From Pseudosulfitobacter pseudonitzschiae (lineage in GTDB: Bacteria; Pseudomonadota; Alphaproteobacteria; Rhodobacterales; Rhodobacteraceae): a stretch of DNA of 64,000 bases. A program made the translations under genes and the position numbers. The stretch is from contig NZ_FQVP01000002.1 of assembly GCF_900129395.1 (NCBI RefSeq), positions 558,001-622,000 of the forward strand, in the 5' to 3' direction. Below, in pieces: positions 10,920-34,826 of this stretch (positions are counted from its first letter, which is position 1; each line of letters opens with the position of its first letter). The notes beneath the pieces were generated by a model. It was not told the origin of the DNA and made no database searches. It saw only the letters and a list, made by a program, of their open reading frames with translations.

Positions 10920-11957
10920 CTACTCCGCTGCCATGCGTGTCCAGGACGGCAACCGCCCTGCGTCTGCCGCATGACAGGCAGAGTGCGCACCACCGGCTCT
11001 GACTTTCAACTCGGGCGACACCGTGCGACAGGTCTCGTTGGCCAGCGGGCAGCGCGGGTGAAAGCTGCACCCCGAAGGCGGCGAGATGGGATTGGGCACT
11101 TCGCCCGACACAGGCGCACGCTCGATGCCGCCGACGGTCAGCTTGGGCACGGTTCCCATCAGCAGCCGCGTATAGGGATGCTGCGGGTTCTCGAAAATCT
11201 GCTCTTTCGGGCCGACCTCGACGATCTTGCCCAGATACATCACCGCCAGAACGTCGGCCATGTACCACACCACCGCCAGATCGTGGCTGATAAAGATGTA
11301 ACTCATGCCGAATTCGTCCTGAAGGTCCTTCATCAGGTTCAGGATCTGACTTTGCACGCTGACATCCAGCGCCGAGGTCGGCTCGTCACAGATCAGCAGT
11401 TCGGGCCGTGTGGTCAGGGCGCGGGCAATCGACAGACGCTGACGCTGGCCGCCCGAAAATTCGTGCGGAAACTTCTTGGCGTCGGCGGCATTCAGGCCCA
11501 CCTGCACCAGCAGTTTCTCCACCTCTTGCGTAACTTCGGCGCGGGTCTTGCAAATGCCGAAATTCTTCAGCGGCTCGCCGATGATCTCGCGCACCCGCCA
11601 GCGCGGGTTGAGCGAGGCAAAGGGGTCCTGAAAAATCATCTGCATCCGGCGGCGCAATGCAGGCGGTTTGCCGGGAGCCATGTGCGTGATGTCGCTGTCC
11701 TCGAACCGTATGGTGCCGGCGCTGGGTGTGTGCAAACCCATCAACAGGCGCGCAACGGTGGATTTGCCGCAGCCGGATTCACCCACCACGGCAAAGGTCT
11801 TGCCGCGCGGCACGTCAAAGCTGATTTCGTCCACGGCGGTCAGGATGCGCCTGGGGCGGCGCTCCAGCAGGCGGTTCAGGAACGGTTCGGATATGTCGAA
11901 ACGCTTGGAAACCTTGCGGACACTCAGGATGTCGGGGCTTTGTGCTTGATCGTTCAT
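10920..11957 (-). CDS. Oligopeptide-type ABC transporter ATP-binding protein (DppF-like)
   Basis: 345 residues. Walker A GESGCGKST, the Q-loop FQDPFASLNPR, signature FSGGQRQRLSIARAL and Walker B LLICDEPTSALD are all present. The C-terminus has the oligopeptide-transporter domain (QHPYTRLLMG, then GCSFHPRCPLA) with cysteines typical of DppF/OppF. It couples ATP hydrolysis to import by the two permeases upstream. The ATG at 11957 overlaps the stop of the companion ATPase. The next gene begins five bases after its stop. Confidence 0.94.
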   Translation of the reverse strand: MNDQAQSPDILSVRKVSKRFDISEPFLNRLLERRPRRILTAVDEISFDVPRGKTFAVVGESGCGKSTVARLLMGLHTPSAGTIRFEDSDITHMAPGKPPALRRRMQMIFQDPFASLNPRWRVREIIGEPLKNFGICKTRAEVTQEVEKLLVQVGLNAADAKKFPHEFSGGQRQRLSIARALTTRPELLICDEPTSALDVSVQSQILNLMKDLQDEFGMSYIFISHDLAVVWYMADVLAVMYLGKIVEVGPKEQIFENPQHPYTRLLMGTVPKLTVGGIERAPVSGEVPNPISPPSGCSFHPRCPLANETCRTVSPELKVRAGGAHSACHAADAGRLPSWTRMAAE

Positions 11958-20535: not shown

Positions 20536-22599
20536 CTAACTTGCCATGCGTTGTTCTGCCGGGGCGGCATCATGAGTGGCGCCGGTGCATCTGAAGTAAC
20601 CGACATCGCGCGTCATCGAATCCACGCCTGCTTGCAAAACCTGCACCGCACTCGAACTTTCGCCCGCCATTGCAGCGTTTTGTTGCACCGCACGGTCAAG
20701 ATCCCCGACGGCGCTGTTCATTTCGTGCAAGCCACTGCTTTGCTCTGCCGCAGCGGATGCAATGTGCAGGATACTGTCGCGAATTTCCGTGACAGTGGTA
20801 TCGATGGAATGCAGCGCCTCACCGGCCTGACCGACCAGATCGACACCGCGGCCCACCTGTCGTTTTGAATCTTCGATCAACTGGGCAATCTCGCGGGCCG
20901 CCTCGGAAGAACGTTGTGCCAATTCGCGCACTTCGGAGGCAACGACCGCAAAACCGCGCCCTGCCTCGCCCGCCCGCGCAGCTTCGACGCCGGCATTCAG
21001 GGCCAGCAGGTTGGTCTGAAAGGCAATGTCGTCGATCACGCTTGTGATCCGCGAGATGGATTGCGAGCTTTCCGCGATGACGTTCATGGCGCTGATCGCA
21101 TCCCCGACCACGACGCTGGATCGTTCCGATTGCTCCTTGGCTTGCTGGACCTGATGGCTTGTGTCGTTGGTCATCTCGGTCGCGCTTTTGACCGAGAATG
21201 TCAGTTCCTCCAGCGCGGCAGCACTTTCTTCCAACGTGGCGGCCTGTCGTTCCGAACGATTGGACAGGTCATTCATGCCGGACGAGATCGAGGCGACCTC
21301 TTGCGTGACCTCAAGCGCTTGCCGCAGGACGCCCGCCATCACACTGTCAAGGCGTTCGACGGCGTTGTTGAATTGCACGCGAATGTCATCAAATTCCCCA
21401 AGGTCGTCATTCAACCGGACCGTCAGATCGCCAGCGGCAAGGCTGCTCAGACCGGCCTGCATGGCATCGGCCGTGCGGATATAGGGGGTGGTGTTGACTG
21501 CAAATTTGACAATCTTGACCACCTCGCCGGCGGCATTGCGGATGGGGTTGTAGCTGGCGCGGATGAATACGGTGCTGCCGTCCTTGCCGATGCGTTCGAA
21601 CGATCCGTCCTTTGCTTCGCCGCGCCGCAAATCATCCCAGAATGACTGGTATTCGGGGCTGTGGCCATGATCATTGGTGACGAACATGCGGTGGTTCTTC
21701 CCAACGATCTCCTTTGCCTCGTAACCCATTGTTTGGCAGAAGATTTCATTGGCGTTCAAAATCTGGCCCCGGGGGTCGAATTCGATAACGGCCTGCACCT
21801 TCTGGATCGCGTCGACCATGGCATTGGCATCGGCTTCAAGGTCGCGCGCCACGGTGATGTCAAAGGCGTATTTGACCACTTTGAACGGCCGGCCTTCGGG
21901 ATCAAGCAGGGTTTCATAGGTGGCCTGAAGCCAGCGCGCCTTGCCACTTTTGCTGATCCGCTTGACCTGGCCGGTTTCCGACGCCCCCGTGCTCAGCCGC
22001 TGCCAAAAGCCCTTGTATTCCGAGGTTCCAATCTCTTCGGGCGGCATGAATATCTTGTGGTGCTTCCCGATCAGTTCTTCCTGAGTATATCCCATCGCAT
22101 CCAGGAAAAGCTGGTTCGCTTCCAGAATGTTGCCCGACAGGTCGAATTCGATCACCGCCATTGACCGTTTCAGCGCGTCGACCTGGCTGCGGTTGTCACG
22201 GCGGCGCAAATGCATATTCGTGATCTCACGTGCCGCGACGATGGTGTAGCCATGCGTGCCGTCGGCATTCATGATCGGGGTATAGGTTGAATCAAACCAG
22301 ATCTCTTCGCCCTGGGCATTCAGGCGGGGTACGATCTGGTTGATGGTTTTGCCCGCTTCAACCGATCTCCAGATTTCCATGAATTCCGGTTTGTTATGAT
22401 CCTTTTGGCGCACGATCTGTTCGTAGTTCTTGCCGATGATATCGGTTGGCGCGACATCCAGGACGGTGCAGAAATTTTCGTTGACCGACTGGATCTTTCT
22501 GTCGGAAGAAATACGCGCAATGACATGCGATGCCTCAAAGGCCTGCATTTCCCGTTTCAGAATTTCCATCTCGGGATTTTTTCCCTTGAACCAAACCAT
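20536..22599 (-). CDS. Cytosolic methyl-accepting chemotaxis protein with three PAS domains
   Basis: 687 residues without any membrane segment. Three tandem PAS domains cover about residues 20-130, 140-255 and 260-380. Each has the N-x-x-F...G-Y/M-x-x-x-E-h-h-G-K signature ([32 protein letters not shown]). A HAMP-like piece ([16 protein letters not shown]) and a receiver-coupling coiled coil follow, with the signalling tip [20 protein letters not shown]. It probably senses redox, oxygen or a soluble ligand inside the cell and feeds CheA. No CheR-binding pentapeptide is seen at the C-terminus and no che genes lie in the window. Confidence 0.93.
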
Positions 22600-22891
22600 T
22601 TTTGCATCCGTGCATAGTGAAATATGAGCCTTGAGTTGCGAGATTGGCGGCCAATGGCTTCAAAACCCTTAAGGCCGTGCAAAAGAAGCATTGCATTTTC
22701 TCTAATTTCACCTTGCATGCTGCAACGGGAGCAACTTCGCCGCCTGTTTTAATAGATCGGCATGGCTTTTGCCCTGTTTCCAAGCGTTTGGTCGCAATTG
22801 CACCGTCGCGGCGCTACATTGCACTTCAATCCGCACCTTAGACGTTGCTGTGCCTCATGTGCCGCGCGATGGTGTGCGAAAGGAGATGTCA

Positions 22892-25800
22892 ATGTCGATC
22901 ACCGCCAGCATTTACCACCTGACCCATTACAAATACGACCGCCCCGTCACGCTGGGGCCGCAGATCATCCGGCTGCGTCCCGCGCCGCATTCGCGCACGC
23001 GGGTCATATCGCATGCGCTTTCGGTGTCGCCGGTCGAGCATTTCGTGAACCACCAACAAGACCCCTACGGCAACTGGATGGCGCGGCTGGTCTTTCCCGA
23101 GCCTGTGCGCGAGTTCAAGATCGAGGTCGATCTGGTCGCGGATATGTCCGTCTATAACCCCTTCGACTTTTTCGTCGAGGACAGCGCCAAGGATTTCCCA
23201 TTCGCCTATGGCCCCGAGATTGCCGACGACCTGTCGATCTACCTGAAAACCGAACCGCTGACGCCCAAGCTGGACGCGTTCCTGAAAACCGTGTCGCGCG
23301 ACAAGATGGTGACGATCGACTTTCTGGTCGGGCTGAACATGCGCCTGGCCAGCGAAATCAACTATGAAATCCGCATGGAACCCGGCGTGCAGACGCCCGA
23401 GGTGACGCTGGACCGCGCGTCGGGCTCGTGCCGTGACAGCAGTTGGCTGTTGGTTCAGATCCTGCGCAATCTGGGCATCGCGGCGCGCTTTGTCTCGGGC
23501 TATCTGATCCAGTTGAAACCGGACCTTATTGCGCTGGACGGGCCTGCGGGCACCGACCATGATTTCACCGACCTGCACGCCTGGGTCGAGGTTTACCTGC
23601 CCGGCGCGGGCTGGATCGGGCTGGACCCCACGTCGGGGCTGTTGGCGGGGGAAAGCCATATCCCGCTGGCCGCGACGCCGCATTATTCCAACGCCGCGCC
23701 GATCACCGGTGTCGCCAGCTTTGCCGAGGTGGAATTCTCGTTCGACATGCAGGTGAAGCGCACGGCCGAACACCCGCGCATCACCAAACCGTTCTCGGAC
23801 GAATCGTGGGATGCGCTGAACGCGCTGGGTCAGAAGATCGACAAACGGCTTGAAGCCGGCGACGTGCGCCTGACGATGGGCGGCGAGCCGACGTTCGTGT
23901 CCATCGACGATTTTGAAAGTCCCGAGTGGAATTCCGACGCGGTTGGGCCGACCAAACGGGTGCTGGCGGACAAGCTGATCCGCCGTTTGCAGGACAAGTT
24001 TTCGAACGGTGGGCTGCTGCATTACGGGCAGGGCAAGTGGTATCCGGGCGAGACGCTGCCGCGCTGGACGTTCTCGCTGTACTGGCGCAAGGACGGCAAG
24101 CCGATCTGGAAGAACCCCGATCTGCTGGCCCGCGAGGACACAAAGGAAGATGTTGGCCCCGACGACGCCAAGGCGTTGCTGGACAGCATTGCCCAACATC
24201 TGGCGGTGCCGCGTGAAAACGTATTGCCGGCCTTCGAGGACCCCGCCGACTGGATCATCAAGGAAGCCAGCCTGCCGGAAAACGTGACACCCGAGAACAA
24301 CAAGCTGAAAGACCCCGAGGAACGCGCCCGCATCGCGCGGGTGTTCGAACGCGGGCTGACCACGCCTGCGGGCTATGTGCTGCCGGTGCAGCGCTGGCAG
24401 GCGCGTGCACAAAGCCGCTGGATGTCCGAAGTGTGGAACATGCGGCGCGGCAAGGTGTTTTTGGTCGCCGGTGACAGCCCCGTGGGCTACCGTCTGCCGC
24501 TGGGCACGCTGCGGCATATCCCCGAGGCCAGCTTTCCTTTCATCAACCCGCAGGACCCGATGGATGACCGCGCGCCGCTGGCCGATCCCGATGAGATCGC
24601 GGCACGCCCGCAGGCCGTGGCCCACCGCACCGATGCCACCGTCGGGCAAGAGGTTGTGGAGCAGACCATGGCCAGTGATGGTGACCTCAGTGGGGCCGTG
24701 CGCACCGCCATTTCGGTTGAGCCGCGCGACGGGCGTTTGTGTGTGTTCCTGCCGCCGGTCGAAACGCTTGAGGATTATCTGGAGCTGATCGCCGCCACCG
24801 AGGCTGCGGCCAGTGCAACCGGCCACAAGGTGCTGATCGAAGGCTACAGCCCGCCCAGCGATCCGCGCATCGAGGTGATCCGCGTGGCCCCCGATCCCGG
24901 TGTGCTTGAGGTGAACATTCATCCCGCCGCCAATTGGGCCGAATGCGTCAACACCACCGAGATCGTCTATGAAGAGGCGCGCCAGTGCCGTCTGGGGGCG
25001 GACAAGTTCATGATCGACGGCCGCCACACCGGCACCGGCGGTGGCAACCACGTGGTTGTGGGCGGGGTCAAACCATCCGACAGTCCGTTCCTGCGCCGTC
25101 CCGATCTGCTGAAAAGCCTGATCCATTTCTGGCAACGCCACCCCAGCCTGTCATACCTGTTCTCGGGCACCTTTGTCGGCCCCACCTCTCAGGCCCCGCG
25201 CATCGACGAGGCGCGCCATGACCAGTTGTATGAGTTGGAAATCGCGCTCGACCAGATCTGGCCGCCGGCCAAGGGCGATGTGCCGCCGCCGTGGCTGACC
25301 GACCGTCTGCTGCGCAACAGCCTGATCGACGTGACCGGCAACACCCACCGCACCGAGATTTGCATCGACAAGCTCTATTCCCCCGACGGTCCCACAGGGC
25401 GTCTGGGGCTGGTGGAGTTCCGTGGATTCGAGATGCCGCCCAACCCGCGCATGAGCCTTGCGCAACAGGTGCTGATCCGCGCCATCATCGCCCGCTGCTG
25501 GGACAGTCCGATCAGCGGCAACCTGACCCGTTGGGGCACACAATTGCATGACCGGTTCATGCTGCCCGAATTCATCTGGGACGATTTTGTCGAAGTGTTG
25601 GACGACCTGCGCGCGCACGGCATGGCGCTGGACCCCATGTGGTTCGAGGCGCAGGCCGAGTTCCGCTTTCCGTTCTGCGGTGAAGTCACCTACGAGGGGA
25701 TCACGCTGGAATTGCGCCAGGCGCTGGAGCCGTGGCACGTGCTGGGCGAAACAGGCGCAATCGGTGGCACGGTGCGCTATACCGACAGCTCGGTCGAGCG

Positions 25801-26215
25801 GTTGCAGGTCAAGCTGACTGGCGCGAACCCGGATCGTTACAGGGTCACCGCCAACAAACGCGTGGTGCCGCTGGCCCAGACCAAGGCACCGCAATCGCGC
25901 GTGGCGGCCGTACGGTACAAGGCGTGGAAGCCGGCACAGTCGATGCATCCCGTGCTTGAGGTCGACGCGCCGCTGACCTTTGACATCTACGACACGTGGA
26001 CCGGACGGTCGCTGGGCGGTTGCCGCTATCACGTGGCGCATCCGGGCGGGCGTAACTTTGACACCTTTCCCGTGAACGGAAACGAGGCCGAAGCGCGGCG
26101 GTTGTCACGGTTCGAACCGCTGGGCCATACGACGGGTGCCTTTACCCCGCCGTCGGAAATACCGCACCCCGAATTCCCGTTCACGCTTGACCTGCGCAGA
26201 CGCCCGGGGTTGTAG
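22892..26215 (+). CDS. Transglutaminase-like protein fused to DUF2126
   Basis: 1107 residues. Residues 1-100 are a bacterial transglutaminase N-domain ([17 protein letters not shown]). The papain-like core follows with Cys180 (SGSCRDSSW), His229 (DLHAWVEVY) and Asp245 (GLDPTSG), so the triad is intact. From about residue 310 to the end lies a very large DUF2126 region ([50 protein letters not shown]), conserved in these clusters and possibly a ligase or binding module. AAAGGAG lies before the ATG. It is the first gene of a four-gene set and no secretion signal is seen. The reaction is unproven; amide-bond cleavage or transfer on a peptide is expected. Confidence 0.93.
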
Positions 26216-26225
26216 TCAGCCGGAT

Positions 26226-28631
26226 ATGGCAAGCGCGCGCATCAACACTGGCACAGCGGGCAACGACCTGCTGGCCAACTACACCACACAGCCCGGCGTC
26301 CACGACGAGATGATCGGCGCGGACGGTGCGGTGAAACCTGCCTGGCGCGACCTGATGGAGCACTTGTGCGGGCTCAGCCCCGAAGGGATGGCGCATCGTT
26401 TTGCCCGGGGTGACCAGTATCTGCGCGAGGCGGGGGTGTTCTACCGCCAGTACGACGACACGGTGTCGTCCGAACGGGAATGGCCGCTGAGCCATATTCC
26501 TGTGGTCCTGGGCGAAAGCGAATGGGCCGAGATCGGCACAGGGCTGGTGCAGCGCGCGGACCTGCTGGAACATGTGGTTCAGGATTTCTACGGGGCCAAT
26601 GACCTGGTCCGCACGGGGCAAATCCCTGCAGCGCTTCTGGGCCAGAACCCGGCATGGCTGCGGCCGATGATGGGGGCGCATCCCAAATCCGAACCTTTCC
26701 TGAATTTCCTGTCCTTTGAAATCGGGCGCGGTCCTGATGGCAAATGGTGGGTCATCAGCGATCTGGTGGAATCGCCCACCACCACCGGCTTTGCCATCGA
26801 GAACCGTGTGGCGCTGACACGGGTGTTCCCGAACTTTTTCAGCAATGCCAACGTCCACCGCATCGCCGGCTTTTTCCAGGCGATCCAGCAACGCCTGTTT
26901 GATCTTCGGGGCAAGGGAACGGGGCAGATTGCCATGCTCAGCCCCGGACCGATGAACCAGCATTATGCCGAACACGCCTATCTGGCGCGCTATCTGGGCC
27001 TGTTGCTGGTCGAGGGCGAGGATCTGATCGTGACGGACGGCCAGGCGATGGTGCGCACGGTGTCGGGGCCGAAACCGCTCAGCCTGTTGTGGAACCGTGT
27101 GCCCGCGGCGATGATCGACCCGCTGGAACTGGATGCCGGATCGCTGATCGGCACGCCGGGCCTGCTGGACGCCTTGCGCCGTCGCACCCTGCGCACGTTG
27201 AACGCCGAAGGGGCGGGGGTGCTGGAAACCCGCGCGCTGATGGCGTTCCTGCCCAAGATTGCGCGGAAACATCTGGGCCAGCCGCTGATCATGCCCAACA
27301 TCGCAACGTGGTGGTGCGGACATGCTGCGGAACGCGACCATGTGATCAACCATTGCGAACAGATGATGGTGGGTTCGGCCTTTTCCACCGTGCCCTTGAT
27401 GGCGGATCCGGGCACCTTCGTTTTCGACGCGGACAAACAGGGCAGCTTTCCCGAACATGTGATGAAGCTGCTGCAAACCTCGGGCCGTGAACTGGTGGGG
27501 CAGGAGACGGTGACGCTTTCGACCACGCCTGTCTATGAAAACGGTCGTTTGGTGGCGCGGCCCATGTGTCTGCGTGTGTTTCTGGTGCGCACGGCGCGCG
27601 GCTGGCAGATGATGCACGGTGGCTATGCCCGTGTCAGCGGCGGCAATGACCCCAAGGCGCTGGCGATGCAGCGCGGCGGCCAGGTGGCGGATGTGTGGGT
27701 CGTCTCGGACAGGCCGGTGCCGCAGACCAGCCTGCTGACGCCCACGGCGGATGCACCCACGCGGGCGTTCTCCGAGGCGGCGCTGCCCTCGCGCGCGGCG
27801 GACAACCTGTTCTGGGTGGGCCGCAACGTCGAGCGTGCCGAATTCAACGTCCGTCTGTTCCGCGCCTATTTCGCCCGCATCAGCGATGGGGTCAGCCCCG
27901 ACGCGCCGATCCTGCGTTATATCCGCAAGCGTCTGATGTATGACGTCAGCGCAGAGGTGGCAAAGATCGCCGAGCGGTTCGAGACACCGCTGTATCAGGG
28001 GCTGCACGCCGCGACCAAGATCGGTGACCGCTTTTCCCCCGACGGGATGAAGGCGCTCAAGGACATCGTGCAGGATGTGGACCGTTTGCGCGCCACCAAG
28101 GTCGAGCCGGACGACGTTCTGTCGGAAATCAGCCTGCTTTTGCGCAAGATCACCGGTTTCAGCGGGCTGGTGCACGAGAATATGTACCGCTCGCATGGCT
28201 GGCGTTTCCTCAGCCTTGGCACTTCGCTGGAACGTGCGGCAGGCATGGTGCGGGTCTTGCGCGAACTGGGCCGCGCGGACGCCCCCGACGGCGCGCTGAA
28301 CCTGGCGCTGGAGCTGGGGGACAGCATCGTGTCGCACCGCGCGCGGTTCTCGGTGGTGGCGGACAAGGCGTCGGTGTTTCACATGCTGGCGCTGGATGGA
28401 AACAACCCGCGTTCGATCCGCTTTCACGTCAGCCGCGCCAACCAGCAGATCAAGGAACTGCCGGGACAGACCGGCGGTGCGGTGCTGGGCGCCGTGGCGC
28501 AGCGTGTTCTGTTGCTGGAGACCCAGCTGGCCACCATCAGCACGGACAAGCTGACGGAAGAGGTGTTCGACCAGATCGAAGCAGAGCTTTGGGCGCTGTC
28601 CGACGCGCTGACCGAAACCTATCTGGTGTAG
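26226..28631 (+). CDS. Circularly permuted ATP-grasp protein fused to alpha-E domain
   Basis: 801 residues. Residues 50-500 match the DUF404/DUF407 circularly permuted ATP-grasp family (GVFYRQYDDTVSSEREWPL; SPGPMNQHYAEHAYLARYLG; LVEGEDLIVTDG; MPNIATWWCG; LRVFLVRTARGWQMMHGGYAR), which are amidoligases joining amino acids using ATP. From about residue 515 comes an alpha-E domain (DUF403: SRAADNLFWVGRNVERAEF; HGWRFLSLGTSLERA). In many genomes these are separate genes, so this is a natural fusion. The start ten bases after the upstream stop keeps the conserved region near the N-terminus. It probably makes the peptide handled by the flanking transglutaminases. Confidence 0.92.
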   Translation: MASARINTGTAGNDLLANYTTQPGVHDEMIGADGAVKPAWRDLMEHLCGLSPEGMAHRFARGDQYLREAGVFYRQYDDTVSSEREWPLSHIPVVLGESEWAEIGTGLVQRADLLEHVVQDFYGANDLVRTGQIPAALLGQNPAWLRPMMGAHPKSEPFLNFLSFEIGRGPDGKWWVISDLVESPTTTGFAIENRVALTRVFPNFFSNANVHRIAGFFQAIQQRLFDLRGKGTGQIAMLSPGPMNQHYAEHAYLARYLGLLLVEGEDLIVTDGQAMVRTVSGPKPLSLLWNRVPAAMIDPLELDAGSLIGTPGLLDALRRRTLRTLNAEGAGVLETRALMAFLPKIARKHLGQPLIMPNIATWWCGHAAERDHVINHCEQMMVGSAFSTVPLMADPGTFVFDADKQGSFPEHVMKLLQTSGRELVGQETVTLSTTPVYENGRLVARPMCLRVFLVRTARGWQMMHGGYARVSGGNDPKALAMQRGGQVADVWVVSDRPVPQTSLLTPTADAPTRAFSEAALPSRAADNLFWVGRNVERAEFNVRLFRAYFARISDGVSPDAPILRYIRKRLMYDVSAEVAKIAERFETPLYQGLHAATKIGDRFSPDGMKALKDIVQDVDRLRATKVEPDDVLSEISLLLRKITGFSGLVHENMYRSHGWRFLSLGTSLERAAGMVRVLRELGRADAPDGALNLALELGDSIVSHRARFSVVADKASVFHMLALDGNNPRSIRFHVSRANQQIKELPGQTGGAVLGAVAQRVLLLETQLATISTDKLTEEVFDQIEAELWALSDALTETYLV

Positions 28632-28633
28632 CC

Positions 28634-29512
28634 ATGGAATATGACATCCGTCTGGTGCTGACCCACACCTACCATCTGCCCGCTGGCAATGGGCGGCACG
28701 TGGTCCGCGTGGTGCCGCGCGCGCTGGGGCAGCGGCAGCAATTGAAACTGTCGATGCTGACGATCACGCCGCAGCCGTCCGAGCAATTCGACAGCGTGGA
28801 TTTTTTCGGCAACCAGACCACCACCTTTGTCCACGCGGATGTGCACAGCAAAATGGTGATCTCGATGGCCTGTCGGGTCGCGGTCCAACAGCCCGCACCC
28901 TTGCTGGACTTTCCGTTGAACGCCGAGCAATTGGCGGTTGAGCTGTCCGACCTGCGCGACATGGGACCGTTGTCGCCCACGCATTTTCTGGGACCGTCGC
29001 CGCGTCTGACGGCAAATTCGGAAATCTCCGCCTTTGCCCGCGACATCCGCCGCGCGCGCGACAGCGTGGCCGCCACGGTGATGCGGCTGGGCGAGGCATT
29101 GCACGGCGTCATGACCTTTGACGCCACGGCCACCACTGTGGACACGAACCCGGTCGATGCCTTCAAGCTCAGGCGCGGGGTCTGTCAGGACTACAGCCAC
29201 ATCATGATCCTTGCCCTGCGATCTCTGGGCATTCCAGCAGGCTATGTCAGCGGCTATCTGCGCACGATCCCGCCCAAGGGCGCGCCACGATTGGAGGGGG
29301 CGGATGCGATGCACGCCTGGGTCAAGGCTTGGTGCGGCGCCGCGCTGGGCTGGGTGGAATACGACCCGACCAATTGCTGCGTCGTGGGCACGGATCATGT
29401 CGTGGTGGGCTACGGGCGCGATTACGCTGATGTCAGCCCCGACATCGGGCATTTGCGCTCGGCAGGGAACCAGACCACCGCGCAATCGGTTGACGTCAAG
29501 GTGGTGACCTGA
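28634..29512 (+). CDS. Transglutaminase-family protein (second, compact)
   Basis: 292 residues. An N-terminal transglutaminase-associated beta domain (RLVLTHTYHLPAGNGRHVVRV) precedes a core with Cys184 (RGVCQDYSH), His227 (AMHAWVKAW) and Asp244 (VEYDPTN), the full catalytic triad. It is much shorter than the first member because it lacks DUF2126. Its ATG falls two bases after the stop of the ATP-grasp gene, so the two are coupled. Family members of this type act as peptidases or transamidases. No signal peptide is present, which indicates cytoplasmic action. Confidence 0.93.
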   Translation: MEYDIRLVLTHTYHLPAGNGRHVVRVVPRALGQRQQLKLSMLTITPQPSEQFDSVDFFGNQTTTFVHADVHSKMVISMACRVAVQQPAPLLDFPLNAEQLAVELSDLRDMGPLSPTHFLGPSPRLTANSEISAFARDIRRARDSVAATVMRLGEALHGVMTFDATATTVDTNPVDAFKLRRGVCQDYSHIMILALRSLGIPAGYVSGYLRTIPPKGAPRLEGADAMHAWVKAWCGAALGWVEYDPTNCCVVGTDHVVVGYGRDYADVSPDIGHLRSAGNQTTAQSVDVKVVT

Positions 29513-29589
29513 ACATCGGTGCGCCCCTCTTGGCATGTCACACAGGCATGACCTCCCCACGACTGCCTTTATGAACGGATACTGACGCA

Positions 29590-30573
29590 ATGCGCATCTA
29601 TGCCTGCCCAAGCTGCAAGGCGACGGCCTATTTCTGGAACCAGCGGTGCATCTGCGGCAATACGCTGGTCTATGATCCCGAAAACGACGGCTTTGTTCCG
29701 GGCGCGCCAACCTGTGCCAACCGGGCGCAGATCGGATGCAACTGGGTGGCCGAGCAGGCCGACACCGGCCTTTGCCGGTCCTGTGCCATGACCGAGGTCG
29801 TGCCCGACATCAAACAGGGGGACAACCTGGCGCTGTGGTCGCGCGCCGAGGCGTCGAAACGCTGGGTGTTGGCGACACTGGGTCGCTGGGGGTGGTTCAC
29901 CGACGCCGACACCGGACCCAACCCGCGGTTCCACCTGTTGTCGGAAGACACCGCCAAGGGCCATACGAATATCATCATGGGGCACCAGAACGGGTTGGTC
30001 ACCATCAACCTTGCCGAAGCGGACCCTATCGAAGAGGTGCGCCGCCGCGAGGCGCTGAGCGAGCGGTTGCGGACCATGACTGCGCATTTTCGCCACGAGA
30101 TTGCGCATTTCCTGTTCGAACGCCTCGCCGCTGCGCACTCCGATTTCGAAGCGCAGTTTACGCCCATCTTTGGTGATCCGCAGGCCGACTATGGCGCGGC
30201 GTTAAAGCGCCACTATGCCAACGGCGCGCCCGCTGACTGGGTAGACCGTTTCATCACGCCCTATGCCTCGGCCCACGCCCATGAGGATTGGGCGGAAACC
30301 TCGGCCCATGTGATGCATCTGGCCGACATGCTGGACAGCGCGGTCGAGGCGGGGCTGACCCTGCCGGTGCTGAACAACCTGAAATACGACGCCTATGCAG
30401 AGACCGACGCCAAGGCGTTGATCGACACGGCAGGGGCCTACGGGCTGGCGCTGAACCACGTGAACCGGTCCATCGGGCACGACGATATCTATCCGTTCGT
30501 GCACAGCCAGACGGTGCAGGACAAACTGGCGACGGCGCATGGGTGGCTGAGCGGGGCGGGGGCTTCGGGTTGA
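29590..30573 (+). CDS. Zinc-ribbon putative zinc metallopeptidase (DUF2248-like)
   Basis: 327 residues. An N-terminal zinc-ribbon region has cysteines at 6, 9, 20, 22, 42, 50, 62 and 65. It is followed by a gluzincin-like core with His169-Glu170-x-x-His173 (FRHEIAHFLFE) and a downstream acidic stretch HAHEDWAETSAH that can supply the third ligand. The layout fits the putative zinc-binding metallopeptidase family once annotated as DUF2248. It follows the transglutaminase by 77 bases on the same strand, at the place where related clusters often carry a proteasome-like NTN hydrolase. A role in cleaving the product or target of the cluster is inferred. Confidence 0.88.
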   Translation: MRIYACPSCKATAYFWNQRCICGNTLVYDPENDGFVPGAPTCANRAQIGCNWVAEQADTGLCRSCAMTEVVPDIKQGDNLALWSRAEASKRWVLATLGRWGWFTDADTGPNPRFHLLSEDTAKGHTNIIMGHQNGLVTINLAEADPIEEVRRREALSERLRTMTAHFRHEIAHFLFERLAAAHSDFEAQFTPIFGDPQADYGAALKRHYANGAPADWVDRFITPYASAHAHEDWAETSAHVMHLADMLDSAVEAGLTLPVLNNLKYDAYAETDAKALIDTAGAYGLALNHVNRSIGHDDIYPFVHSQTVQDKLATAHGWLSGAGASG

Positions 30574-31188: not shown

Positions 31189-32253
31189 CTATCCCTGCGG
31201 TGCAATCTCGATCAGGTGGTTGTCGTATGCCAGTTGCACGGTCTGCAACAGGCGCGTGCTGCTGTCGGCATGGATCACCCGGCCCAGCCCGGTCGTTGCC
31301 AGCAAGCCGTCCTTGGCCGCGACCACGCCACAGACGTCCTGTTCTGCCAGCCGTTGCACCAGCGCGCCGGTGCCTGCGTCAAAAACCTCAAGCGTGCCGC
31401 CGCGCGGCGAGGTGATCGCCACCTGCGTGCCATTCCCGGAAAAGGCGATGCTGCCAACGTAGCCTTCCAGCGCCGCGGCATCGCCCAACAGGCGCAGCGG
31501 TTCGCCACGCCGGTGCAGGCCCACCAGCGCAGGCGACCGCGCCACATCGCCCTGCCATTGCATCCCCACGGCCACCAGCCCGTCGGCCCGCACCGCCAGG
31601 TGGCGGGTCGAGGCGTGGTGGTGCGGGGGTTCGACCATGTCGAGCAGGTCGCCGTCTTCGGACAGATAGGCCAGATTGGGCCGCATCGTGGGCAGGTTCA
31701 GCTTCAGCCGCCCGCTGTCGGGATGGGTGTCGATGCCGCCGTTGGCGACAACGAAGCCGCCCTGTGGCAGCAGTTTCATGTCATGCGGGCCAACCCCGCC
31801 CGAGGCAAACTCGCCAATGCGGGTATATCCCGCCGCCACGTCCCAGACGCCGATGCGGCCCTGACCTACGTCATAGTCGTTCTCGGTGGTGAACAGATAC
31901 TGCCCGCTGGCGTCAAAGCTGCCATGCCCGTAGAAATGCCGCCCCTCTGGGCTGTCCAGTCGCGCCAGCACCGCACCATCGCGGCAATCCAGCACCAGCG
32001 CAAAGCGCCCCGGCCTGCGGGCAAAGGCCACGGCGACGGGCTGGGTCGGGTGCGCGGCAGCGGCATGGCCGCGCGCGGGCAGGGGGATGCGGAACCGTTC
32101 GGCCCCCTGACGGTCCAGCCCGGTCAGCACATAGCTTTCATCCGGCAGACGCGCGGCGGACAGATAGGCCGGGCTGCCCGCGTCGGCCCATGTGGGCACG
32201 GGCGCAAGGCCCGAGGCCAGAAGCCCCGCAAGGAATTGTCGGCGGTTTGCCAT
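31189..32253 (-). CDS. DUF1513 domain-containing exported protein
   Basis: 354 residues. The start NRRQFLAGLLASGLAP has a twin-arginine-like signal, followed by a seven-bladed propeller-like protein of DUF1513: HPTQPVAVAFARRPG; GHGSFDASGQYLFTTENDYD; GIDTHPDSGRLKLNLPTM; PPHHHASTRHLAV. Its biochemical role is unknown. It regularly follows imelysin and di-haem oxidoreductase genes in iron-regulated operons, and that arrangement is present here. A two-base gap separates it from the imelysin gene, and it is the last gene of the set. Confidence 0.88.
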   Translation of the reverse strand: MANRRQFLAGLLASGLAPVPTWADAGSPAYLSAARLPDESYVLTGLDRQGAERFRIPLPARGHAAAAHPTQPVAVAFARRPGRFALVLDCRDGAVLARLDSPEGRHFYGHGSFDASGQYLFTTENDYDVGQGRIGVWDVAAGYTRIGEFASGGVGPHDMKLLPQGGFVVANGGIDTHPDSGRLKLNLPTMRPNLAYLSEDGDLLDMVEPPHHHASTRHLAVRADGLVAVGMQWQGDVARSPALVGLHRRGEPLRLLGDAAALEGYVGSIAFSGNGTQVAITSPRGGTLEVFDAGTGALVQRLAEQDVCGVVAAKDGLLATTGLGRVIHADSSTRLLQTVQLAYDNHLIEIAPQG

Positions 32254-32254
32254 G

Positions 32255-33214
32255 TCAGTCTCCGTCCAGAGAGTTGAACCCCGCGCTGACGCCCAATTGC
32301 GGCCCCAGCTTCATCGCCAGCAGGTCTCGGATGGCGTCGATGTTTTGTTGCAGCACTTCCAGTTTCAGGTGGTTCTGCGGGTCGTCCACAAAGCTGAAAT
32401 CGGCCCCGCCCTCGATCTGTGCAATCTCGTCCGCGCGGGCCAATGCCGTGTCGAATGCCGCGTCGATCTCTGTGGTCAACTCGGGGTCTTCTGAGGCCAG
32501 CGCGCGGGCCAGTTGTTGCAGGCTGGTCAGCGATACGACCACGTTGTTCAGCGACCGGCCCGACCGGCGCATCTCGGCGCGGGTGGCGCGGGGGTGGTCA
32601 AAGGTGCCCAAGGGGCGGCCAATGCGGGTGTCCGAGGTGAACTCAAGCCCGGTTTGCAGGGATTTGTACAACTCTTGCAGCGCCTCTGTGTCCGATTGAT
32701 AGGTCGCATTCGTCGGATCGCGCAGCAGATCGGCGTAGCGGTCGTTCCAGTCTTGGGCGATGGCTTTGGTTGTGGTGTTTGCATCCTCGGCCAACGCGTG
32801 CACCAGCGCGCAGCGGGCATCGCTGGCGGGATAGGCGGGGTCGAACAGCAGGAACTCCATCGCATAGAAACCGCGCCCCGCGACGGATGCATCGGCCACC
32901 GCAGGGGCGTCATCGCCCAGCAATGTGTTCAACGCCTTGGGGGTGGCCCCGCGCGGGTCGGGCCAATAGGCCAGCGCAAAGCCGCGGTTGTTCACTTCCG
33001 TGGGACCAAAGCGCAGGTGCGACACCGCCTGCCATGCGTCCGACGCCTGCGCCCAGGCCGCGACAGGTGCGCAGTCCTGCGAGGCGGCAAGGGCCGCAGT
33101 GCTGTCCGTCAGATGGGCGAAGGCGGGCAAAATATGCTGGTCAAGGGCTGCATCCACCCGATCGTCGGCCATGGCTGACAGGGGAAGCAGGGCAAAAAGG
33201 ATGGCAAGACGCAT
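32255..33214 (-). CDS. Imelysin family (peptidase M75-like) periplasmic protein
   Basis: 319 residues with a Sec signal peptide (RLAILFALLPLSAMA). An imelysin-like all-helical fold follows, with ALDQHILPAFAHL near the N-terminus, the GxHxxE-like position reading GFYAMEFLLFD, and HLRFGPTEVNNRGF. The canonical GxHxxE histidine is replaced (FYAMEF), as in many non-proteolytic imelysins that act in iron or haem uptake. The start overlaps the stop of the di-haem gene as TGATG. A TTG at 33217 is possible but less likely. Confidence 0.9.
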   Translation of the reverse strand: MRLAILFALLPLSAMADDRVDAALDQHILPAFAHLTDSTAALAASQDCAPVAAWAQASDAWQAVSHLRFGPTEVNNRGFALAYWPDPRGATPKALNTLLGDDAPAVADASVAGRGFYAMEFLLFDPAYPASDARCALVHALAEDANTTTKAIAQDWNDRYADLLRDPTNATYQSDTEALQELYKSLQTGLEFTSDTRIGRPLGTFDHPRATRAEMRRSGRSLNNVVVSLTSLQQLARALASEDPELTTEIDAAFDTALARADEIAQIEGGADFSFVDDPQNHLKLEVLQQNIDAIRDLLAMKLGPQLGVSAGFNSLDGD

Positions 33215-34755
33215 CAAAGGCTCTCCAGATAGGATACAAGCGCATCACGGTCGGGCTTGGGCATGTTCACAACACGGTCGCGGGCCGGTTGGGCCTCGCC
33301 TCCGTGCCACAGGATCGCCTCCAGCAACGACCGCGCGCGCCCGTCGTGCAGGAACAGCGTATGCCCCGAAACCTGCTGCGTCAAACCGATGCCCCACAGC
33401 GGGGCGGTGCGCCATTCGGTGCCATCGGCCACCGCTTCGGGACGGTTGTCTGCCAGGCCGGGGCCCATGTCGTGCAGCAGCATGTCGGTGTGCGGCCAGA
33501 TCAGCTGAAAGCTTTGCTCGGGGCGGTCGGCCAGGCGGCTGGTGACAAAGGACGGCTGGTGGCAGGACGCGCACCCGGTGTCGTAAAACACTTGCTTGCC
33601 GCGCAAGACCTGCGGATCGCCCACGTCGCGCCGCGCCGGCACCGCCAGGTTGCGCGAATAGAACACAACCAGATCCAGCCCCTCCTGGTCGATCTCGAAC
33701 TCGCGCACGTCGCCGTCACCATGCGGCGCGGTGCGACAGGCATCCTGAATGGTCGAGCATTCGCCAAAGGGATCGCGGTAAAGCGGGTTGGAAATGCCGA
33801 TGTCACCGGCAAAGGCACCGGCACTTTGTTGCAGGACCGTGGGTGCGCCGGCCTTCAGGCCGAAACGGCCCAGCATGGGGCGGTTGAACTCGTCCGACCA
33901 GACCACGTTGGGGCGGCCCGAAATGCCGTCGCCGTCTGCATCGTCGGGGTCGGCCAGCGCCAGAATGTCGGCGGCGGGGATCGCCTCAAGCAGGCCCAGA
34001 CCGATCATTTGCGGTGCCACGCGGGGCGACAGCATCGCCTGCGGGTGCAGCGGGCCATAGCCCAGATCGGCTGCGGTATAGGTCGGATCACGCAGCATCA
34101 CGGTGGTTCCGTCGGCCAGGGTCACGGCGCGTTCTTCATAGTCGATCTGCAGCCGGTATTCGGCGGGCAGGCCGGGCAGGGCAAAATCCTGAAGTTGCGT
34201 GCCATAGGTCGGGTCGGGTGCGGTGCCCAGATAATCCTGAATGTCGGCAATGCGGGCGGCGTCGTCGGGGATCGAGACGCGCAGGAACATCGACACCGCG
34301 TTTTCGGCATCGGGCTCCGGCGGATGGCCGCGCCCGTCCTTCAGGTGGCACCGTTGGCAGGACCGCGCGTTATACAGTGGTCCCAGGCCATCCGAGGCCA
34401 ATGTGGACGACGGCGCCGAGACCCAGATCTTGCGGAACAGCCCGTTGCCGACCTTGAAATTCAGCTCGTCCTCGAAGCTGAGATTGGCGGAGGGTTGCGA
34501 AAACGCATCGGCGTTGGGTTTGACACGCACGGTGGCCGCACCGCCGGGCAGGTCCTCGAACCGCTGCGGCGCGGTGAAATCCTGCGGCGGTGCCAGAACC
34601 TTTGCGATGCGCTCGGCCTCGGCGGGCGTGCGGGGAACCACGTTCAGATGGGGATCGTCCACGATGCCTGAATAGCGGTCGGATTGTGCGTCTGCCTGCG
34701 ACAGCAAAAGTGTGCCGAAAAAGGCCGCGACAAAGAGTGATCTTGTTATCTTCAT
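33214..34755 (-). CDS. Di-haem oxidoreductase (DHOR, DUF1111), putative thiol oxidoreductase
   Basis: 513 residues. A signal peptide (KITRSLFVAAFFGTLLLS...ADA) is followed by two c-type haem sites, CQRCH in the N-terminal half and CASCH in the C-terminal half, with LKDGRGHPPEP and TAPLWGIGL typical of the DHOR family. It acts in the periplasm, possibly oxidising or reducing iron for uptake by the imelysin partner. ATG 34755 is preferred to TTG 34767 because it starts the signal peptide and has AGG upstream. It is the first gene of the DHOR-imelysin-DUF1513 operon, divergent from a small protein gene. Confidence 0.92.
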   Translation of the reverse strand: MKITRSLFVAAFFGTLLLSQADAQSDRYSGIVDDPHLNVVPRTPAEAERIAKVLAPPQDFTAPQRFEDLPGGAATVRVKPNADAFSQPSANLSFEDELNFKVGNGLFRKIWVSAPSSTLASDGLGPLYNARSCQRCHLKDGRGHPPEPDAENAVSMFLRVSIPDDAARIADIQDYLGTAPDPTYGTQLQDFALPGLPAEYRLQIDYEERAVTLADGTTVMLRDPTYTAADLGYGPLHPQAMLSPRVAPQMIGLGLLEAIPAADILALADPDDADGDGISGRPNVVWSDEFNRPMLGRFGLKAGAPTVLQQSAGAFAGDIGISNPLYRDPFGECSTIQDACRTAPHGDGDVREFEIDQEGLDLVVFYSRNLAVPARRDVGDPQVLRGKQVFYDTGCASCHQPSFVTSRLADRPEQSFQLIWPHTDMLLHDMGPGLADNRPEAVADGTEWRTAPLWGIGLTQQVSGHTLFLHDGRARSLLEAILWHGGEAQPARDRVVNMPKPDRDALVSYLESL

Positions 34756-34826
34756 AAACCTGAGCAATATTGTCGGAAATTAGAGTCGTCCAGCTCTTTG
34801 TGACCCTTATACACGCGGGTTTGATC

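Follow-up and report, generated by a model that had tools for sequence, protein, structure and literature searches.

The 64,000-nucleotide stretch of Pseudosulfitobacter pseudonitzschiae DNA analysed here (the window, part of contig C16 of a 4.95 Mb genome) contains four rightward genes at positions 22892-30573. They encode a transglutaminase (TG) protein with a DUF2126 domain (TG-DUF2126), a fusion of a circularly permuted (CP) ATP-grasp and alpha-E, a second transglutaminase-like protein (TG2), and a zinc-ribbon metallopeptidase (ZnMP). The set is real, non-random, and functionally linked, and would serve to modify proteins or peptides. Its kind is known, the ATP-grasp/alpha-E/transglutaminase/Anbu network, of which it is a distinct variant: its ATP-grasp is rewritten and a metallopeptidase has been added. 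The best explanation, held with about even confidence, is that these genes serve the Anbu system as an accessory module built on TG-DUF2126 and a pseudo-ATP-grasp, and do not form an Anbu-free replacement for it.

Gene content of the locus

The four genes were confirmed by sequence and Pfam where an earlier note on this DNA had placed them. That note had also described genes 1 to 3 as almost contiguous, with the peptidase a little further on, and had named the catalytic triads of both TG proteins; each of these points was correct. The stop codon of gene 1 is followed by gene 2 after 10 bases, that of gene 2 by gene 3 after 2 bases, and that of gene 3 by gene 4 after 77 bases. The start codons of genes 2, 3, and 4 were chosen from the sequence, and the residues of gene 3 are numbered from MEYDI. 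Ahead of gene 1, the sequence AAAGGAG at 22879-22885 resembles a ribosome site.

The closest named relatives found were Sulfitobacter and Pseudosulfitobacter. The CP-ATP-grasp, alpha-E, and transglutaminase-like domains found together at the locus by Pfam keep their order in relatives, and the order of all four genes is identical in the loci of three close relatives (L005, L006, and L007). Purifying selection acts on each of the four, with ratios of nonsynonymous to synonymous substitution rates (dN/dS) of 0.030-0.148 in 12 comparisons against three relatives.

The Anbu operon on contig C10

A whole-genome search for the proteasome family gave two matches, on contigs C10 and C15. The C15 match is taken to be HslV. 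The C10 match (PF00227, 43 bits) is Anbu. It starts MTYCVG, which would give Thr1 once the methionine is removed, and D17 and K32 are kept. The four-gene cluster itself contains no Anbu gene; the Anbu of this genome lies last in its own complete operon on C10, in the classical order of ATP-grasp, alpha-E, transglutaminase, and Anbu. By sequence identity (26% for the ATP-grasp, 23% for alpha-E, and 28-30% for the TG domains), the proteins of the cluster are only distantly paralogous to their counterparts in the C10 operon. The presence of this operon, with an ATP-grasp that keeps its canonical residues, supports the accessory-module reading.

The fused ATP-grasp

Gene 2 (26226..28631, plus strand) encodes an 801-amino-acid protein that matches PF14403 (CP-ATP-grasp, 372.1 bits) and PF04168 (153.5 bits). 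From Pfam and an alignment to PDB 3n6x, its first half is a pseudo-ATP-grasp that lacks the canonical ATP/metal residues. This half was examined in an alignment of eight unfused ATP-grasps with 29 fused rows, which represent 28 genes of Pseudomonadota or of relatives of the window; residues are numbered by the C10 protein. All eight unfused proteins keep the E-x-N pair, the lysine, the glycine loop, and the ADDK motif. The positions counted next are likewise invariant in these eight. In the fused rows, E168 and D327 are each kept in 1 of 29, while N170, R172, D328, K329, K376, H434, and D436 are kept in none, and the E-x-N pair is complete in none. D287 is present in 5/29. The SGGYG loop was seen in 0/29, in a gapped region where the alignment is unsure. 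The residues that are kept are D169 (26/29), R283 and R284 (24/29 each), D286 (22/29), and R438 (29/29). In another 17 columns, 26 or more of the 29 fused rows share a residue that the unfused proteins lack.

The fused protein is homologous over residues 25-495 to PDB 3n6x, a putative glutathionylspermidine synthase (E 1.1e-54). From 3n6x to the window protein, EDNLR becomes SDLVE, RRIDDD becomes NRVPAA, GVADDK becomes GVLETR, and RHVDLRPF becomes RPMCLRVF, and the lysine/glycine loop is gone. The unfused C10 ATP-grasp, in contrast, keeps the 3n6x motifs (E 1.3e-193). By eye, the E-x-N pair and the lysine match E330-x-N332 and K533 of E. coli Gss.

Fused and unfused ATP-grasps are split by a fully supported branch in the tree, in which three fused rows are long-branched. 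The fused protein has dN/dS of 0.06-0.12, indicating purifying selection. In its alpha-E half, the W-x-x-R-x-x-E-R pattern is kept in most of 22 fused rows, and the window's clade has lost other positions. A deep lineage whose ATP/metal residues are rewritten and which is nonetheless under purifying selection supports the accessory-module reading.

Judged from these residues, the fused ATP-grasp looks dead or rewritten. Its proposed role as the peptide synthesiser is weakened because the ATP/metal residues are gone; the set may still make, attach, and remove a peptide. The fused ATP-grasp is the enzyme one would assay first, and it is probably not the ligase. If it is dead or rewritten, interest shifts to TG-DUF2126 and to the Anbu operon's own ATP-grasp.

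Co-occurrence of ZnMP, DUF2126, Anbu, and alpha-E

Two genome sets were searched. The family set comprises 150 genera with one genome each, of which 25 have ZnMP (PF15887), 46 have DUF2126 (PF09899), and 105 have Anbu. The phylum set comprises 299 genomes, many of the same genus, with ZnMP in 60 (three of them, G319, G329, and G376, on partial matches), DUF2126 in 92, and Anbu in 115. Kinship was handled only by taking one genome per genus.

ZnMP is a true, statistically supported partner of the module. In the family set, DUF2126 is present in 21 of the 25 ZnMP genera and in 25 of the other 125 (p 1.7e-9). In the other direction, ZnMP is present in 21 of 46 DUF2126-positive genera and 4 of 104 DUF2126-negative genera. 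Anbu is present in 22 of the 25 ZnMP genera (p 0.03), and all 25 have either DUF2126 or Anbu (chance 1e-4). Genome size was considered as the source of this pattern. For the family set this was ruled out, since the link with DUF2126 persists once size is allowed for (p 6e-7), using sizes for 130 of the 150 genomes; the other 20 are without ZnMP, DUF2126, and Anbu. In the phylum set, ZnMP occurs with DUF2126 in 47 genomes, with Anbu in 43, and with either in 58 of 60 (background 149/299). The two exceptions are G262, which has two CP-ATP-grasps, and G234, which has none. Counted per genus, DUF2126 is found in 24/34 with ZnMP and 30/147 without it (p 5e-8). DUF2126 is also present in 19 of the 23 genomes behind the 23 related loci. 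That the zinc-ribbon peptidase follows the Anbu/DUF2126 network in this way is a further argument for an accessory module.

The earlier note had assigned the metallopeptidase to the other three genes, and this was borne out by its co-occurrence with DUF2126, near which it also lies in eight families of the phylum set. It had also held that the peptidase replaces Anbu. This part did not stand, given the complete operon in the same genome and the Anbu present in most ZnMP genomes of both sets, and replacement was rejected as the main reading on these two grounds. Among DUF2126-positive genomes of the phylum set, absence of Anbu does not favour ZnMP (15/34 without Anbu vs 32/58 with it, p 0.39). 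The family set leans towards replacement, with ZnMP in 3/3 DUF2126-positive genera without Anbu vs 18/43 with it (p 0.088). The remaining 42 of the 45 family-set genera without Anbu have no DUF2126, and none has ZnMP.

Each of the 46 family-set genera with DUF2126 has, in addition, an unfused alpha-E, defined as an alpha-E match in a frame too short for the fusion. Any alpha-E is found in 110 of the 150 genera, and the probability of 46/46 by chance is 2e-8. Anbu is present in 43 of the 46. The restriction of family-set DUF2126 to genera with an unfused alpha-E again supports the accessory-module reading.

Physical linkage

The module and the Anbu operon are joined in several other genomes, and these joins are part of the case for an accessory module. 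In L058 (G022), the two make up a single run of seven genes, all on the same strand. In both L059 and L060, ATP-grasp/alpha-E/Anbu and TG-DUF2126 are divergent, and the fused protein is absent from the stretch fetched. In 11 genomes of the phylum set, coordinates compared by eye put DUF2126 about 1 kb or less from Anbu. In L053, L054, L056, and L061, an unfused ATP-grasp/alpha-E pair adjoins the module, and the search for Anbu in those genomes found none. Loci from several families share the order TG-DUF2126, fused protein, TG2.

Where a genome has both genes, ZnMP lies at most 10 kb from DUF2126 in 3 of 21 cases in the family set and 13 of 47 in the phylum set (chance about 0.2 of 47). The 13 linked genomes represent eight genera in eight families, five of the genomes being of one genus. 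Two further genera of the family set have ZnMP near DUF2126. The two are apart in most genomes with both, and the module is beside ZnMP in only 4 of the 23 related loci (L005, L006, L007, and L017); L008 and L013 are short contigs. ZnMP is downstream on the same strand in the window and L005-L007, upstream on the same strand in L017, L044, and L045, and divergent upstream in L046-L051, L055, and L056. It is downstream and convergent in L057, and some genes away in L052, L053, and L054. In three phylum-set genomes without DUF2126 (3 of the 43 with ZnMP and Anbu), ZnMP is convergent with Anbu itself at a distance of 30-54 bp.

Three Albimonas loci (L016, at 11130-11951, L020, and L023) carry a transglutaminase-like gene convergent to ZnMP. 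In the L016 gene, the catalytic histidine is by eye apparently alanine.

Transglutaminase proteins and DUF2126

Gene 1 (22892..26215, plus strand) encodes the 1107-amino-acid TG-DUF2126, with TG N-terminal and core domains followed by DUF2126 (PF08379, PF01841, and PF09899, the last at 1321.7 bits). Gene 3 (28634..29512, plus strand) encodes the 292-amino-acid TG2 (PF08379 and PF01841). The Cys-His-Asp triad is complete in both, as C180/H229/D245 in gene 1 and C184/H227/D244 in gene 3. The gene 1 triad is kept in 33/33 other loci, a few of which are one gene fetched twice, and that of TG2 is invariant in 22/22 sequences. DUF2126 has 117 invariant or nearly invariant polar or glycine positions across 32 sequences.

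A profile of DUF2126 searched against the PDB for a glutamine-synthetase-like fold gave no match, and hhalign against 23 + 2 GCS2 proteins gave none. An AlphaFold2 model made from five sequences had a predicted local distance difference test (pLDDT) score of 38.4.

Three other observations concern DUF2126. A pattern for viral relatives gave 81 matches, none of which was confirmed. In L027 (G464, Paracoccus mutanolyticus), the DUF2126 match falls into two overlapping parts and contains a TGA, which means either a broken gene or a sequencing error. In L025 (G462), recorded as Oceanobacillus sp. HTM 045, the DUF2126 match shares its contig number and coordinates with G004, from the window's family; for this reason either the name of the organism seems wrong or the assembly seems to be a mixture.

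The zinc-ribbon metallopeptidase

Gene 4 (29590..30573, plus strand) encodes the 327-amino-acid ZnMP, which matches PF15887 (241.5 bits) and PF10005, both over their cut-offs. It has HEIAH at 169-173 and a conserved H229-E232-D233-E236 set. H169, E170, H173, E232, D233, and E236 are invariant in 44/44 sequences, and the ribbon cysteines are present in 43 or 44 of 44. The AlphaFold2 model has a mean pLDDT of 90.3. Sequence searches against the PDB gave no match better than E 0.49, and the single NCBIfam match was far under its cut-off. A literature listing from an open-licence library showed no peptidase assay for this family. The best Foldseek match of the model is PDB 4l7a, a putative zinc-binding metallopeptidase of Bacteroides caccae (E 0.0097, probability 0.82), with TM-scores of just 0.23 and 0.27; 0/190 Foldseek matches had E ≤ 0.001.

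Neighbouring genes

Among the first 28 clusters listed for 25 stretches, recurrent neighbours were ABC ATPases in six and an aldehyde-dehydrogenase-like protein (by eye) in four; the remaining families listed were only those common to near relatives. On the minus strand at 20536-22599, divergent from gene 1, is a gene whose product resembles, by eye, a chemoreceptor with PAS repeats; it is also present in L005 and L007. The downstream minus-strand genes at 31189-34767 look by eye like an iron-related imelysin/DUF1513/di-haem group, which also follows the module in L005-L007.

Possible mechanism and alternatives

In an accessory module, TG-DUF2126 would be the catalytic centre and would join, transfer, or hydrolyse an amide or isopeptide bond. 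The pseudo-ATP-grasp/alpha-E protein would carry out no ligation and may hold the substrate or pair with the active ATP-grasp/alpha-E of the Anbu operon, as an adaptor or regulator. TG2 would make or cut the same type of bond as TG-DUF2126. ZnMP would trim or remove the product, with the ribbon aiding recognition. The published rise of the P. putida Anbu operon on nitrate in place of ammonium points, purely by analogy, to a role in nitrogen limitation. A more specific proposal, which is tentative and less likely than not, is a bacterial network for tagging proteins or peptides with a second, dependent module, in which the pseudo-ATP-grasp/alpha-E protein is an adaptor or regulator of the Anbu-operon ATP-grasp/alpha-E, TG-DUF2126 is the writer, and ZnMP is the eraser, so that Anbu and ZnMP would be two release steps of one pathway. 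Genomes with both the module and the Anbu operon permit clean genetics.

Several points weigh against the accessory-module reading. The module and the Anbu operon lie on different contigs in this genome. In the phylum set, 34 of 92 DUF2126 genomes are without Anbu, and the count of unfused alpha-E covers the family set alone. The amidoligase nature of DUF2126 has no support from the PDB profile search, the AlphaFold2 model, or hhalign. The E-x-N pair is presumed to bind metal, and the lysine and glycine loop to bind ATP, by extension from ATP-grasp enzymes. An hhalign comparison with E. coli Gss gave no usable alignment for the fused or the unfused group, and the rewritten ATP-grasp could still bind nucleotide. 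The activities of all these proteins are predicted from sequence. In the part of PMC8050072 drawn on here, a PP_2685 promoter reporter did not respond to nitrogen, while a PP_2688 reporter changed 3.7-fold.

A rather unlikely alternative is hydrolytic nitrogen scavenging, in which modified or cross-linked proteins would have their amide or isopeptide bonds cleaved by the TG domains, DUF2126, and ZnMP, with no tag being made. Hydrolase-type residues are intact in both TG proteins and ZnMP, and the lost ATP-grasp residues and the lack of support for DUF2126 as a ligase fit it as well. Excerpts of PMC8050072 give log2 changes of +4.44 for PP_2685 (Anbu) and +3.99 for PP_2688 (ATP-grasp) in P. putida on nitrate vs ammonium, and an excerpt of PMC3597751 reports that these domains cluster with urea-metabolism domains in marine metagenomes. 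The induction data come, however, from the Anbu operon of another genus, Pfam labels DUF2126 a putative amidoligase, and the cluster has no conspicuous sigma-54-like site. A loose scan for sigma-54-like promoters gave 35 matches in the window vs 46 expected and 14 in L004 vs 12 expected; no match fell between gene 1 and its divergent neighbour. Sigma-70 matches were at chance numbers.

Also unlikely is that the fused ATP-grasp still works as an enzyme whose mechanism or substrate has changed, such as a neofunctional ligase or kinase, and that the module is an independent small-peptide biosynthesis pathway. The 17 newly conserved columns, the low dN/dS, and the retained R438, R283, and R284 are consistent with this, as is a review-table entry in PMC7764037 for a metagenomic ATP-grasp/alpha-E/transglutaminase/protease clone with antinematode activity. 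Against it are the loss of N170, K376, K329, and H434 from every fused row and of E168 from all but one, and the second, unfused alpha-E of every family-set DUF2126 genus.

Very unlikely is that the four genes are a complete system of their own, with a peptide made by the ATP-grasp, attached by the transglutaminases, and removed by the peptidase, which would take the place of Anbu: ZnMP adjoins the module and occurs in the three family-set DUF2126 genera without Anbu, but the genome has its own Anbu operon, the phylum-set counts do not favour replacement, ZnMP can lie beside Anbu itself, and the ATP-grasp residues are lost.

Comparison with known systems

The Anbu operon consists of ATP-grasp, alpha-E, transglutaminase, and Anbu genes (Iyer et al. 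2009; Valas and Bourne 2008; as cited in excerpts of PMC5666114 and PMC6376114). The excerpts of PMC6376114 report that the Yersinia operon ATP-grasp releases phosphate from ATP, that no peptidase activity of Anbu was detected, and that no specific complex with other operon proteins was found. Those of PMC5666114 favour protein degradation by Anbu over peptide synthesis. Within the cited excerpts, no confirmed product, substrate, or function is given for the Anbu system.

ZnMP resembles Peptidase_Mx (PF15887) with a zinc ribbon (PF10005) in matching both models and in having HExxH with further conserved acidic residues. In the tree, the window subfamily is set apart with full support from the ZnMP found in most of the other linked loci.

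The window module is like the Anbu operon in its CP-ATP-grasp, alpha-E, and transglutaminase-like domains, and DUF2126 and Anbu adjoin in other genomes. It differs in that Anbu is absent, the ATP-grasp is rewritten and fused to alpha-E, there are two TG proteins, and DUF2126 and ZnMP are added.

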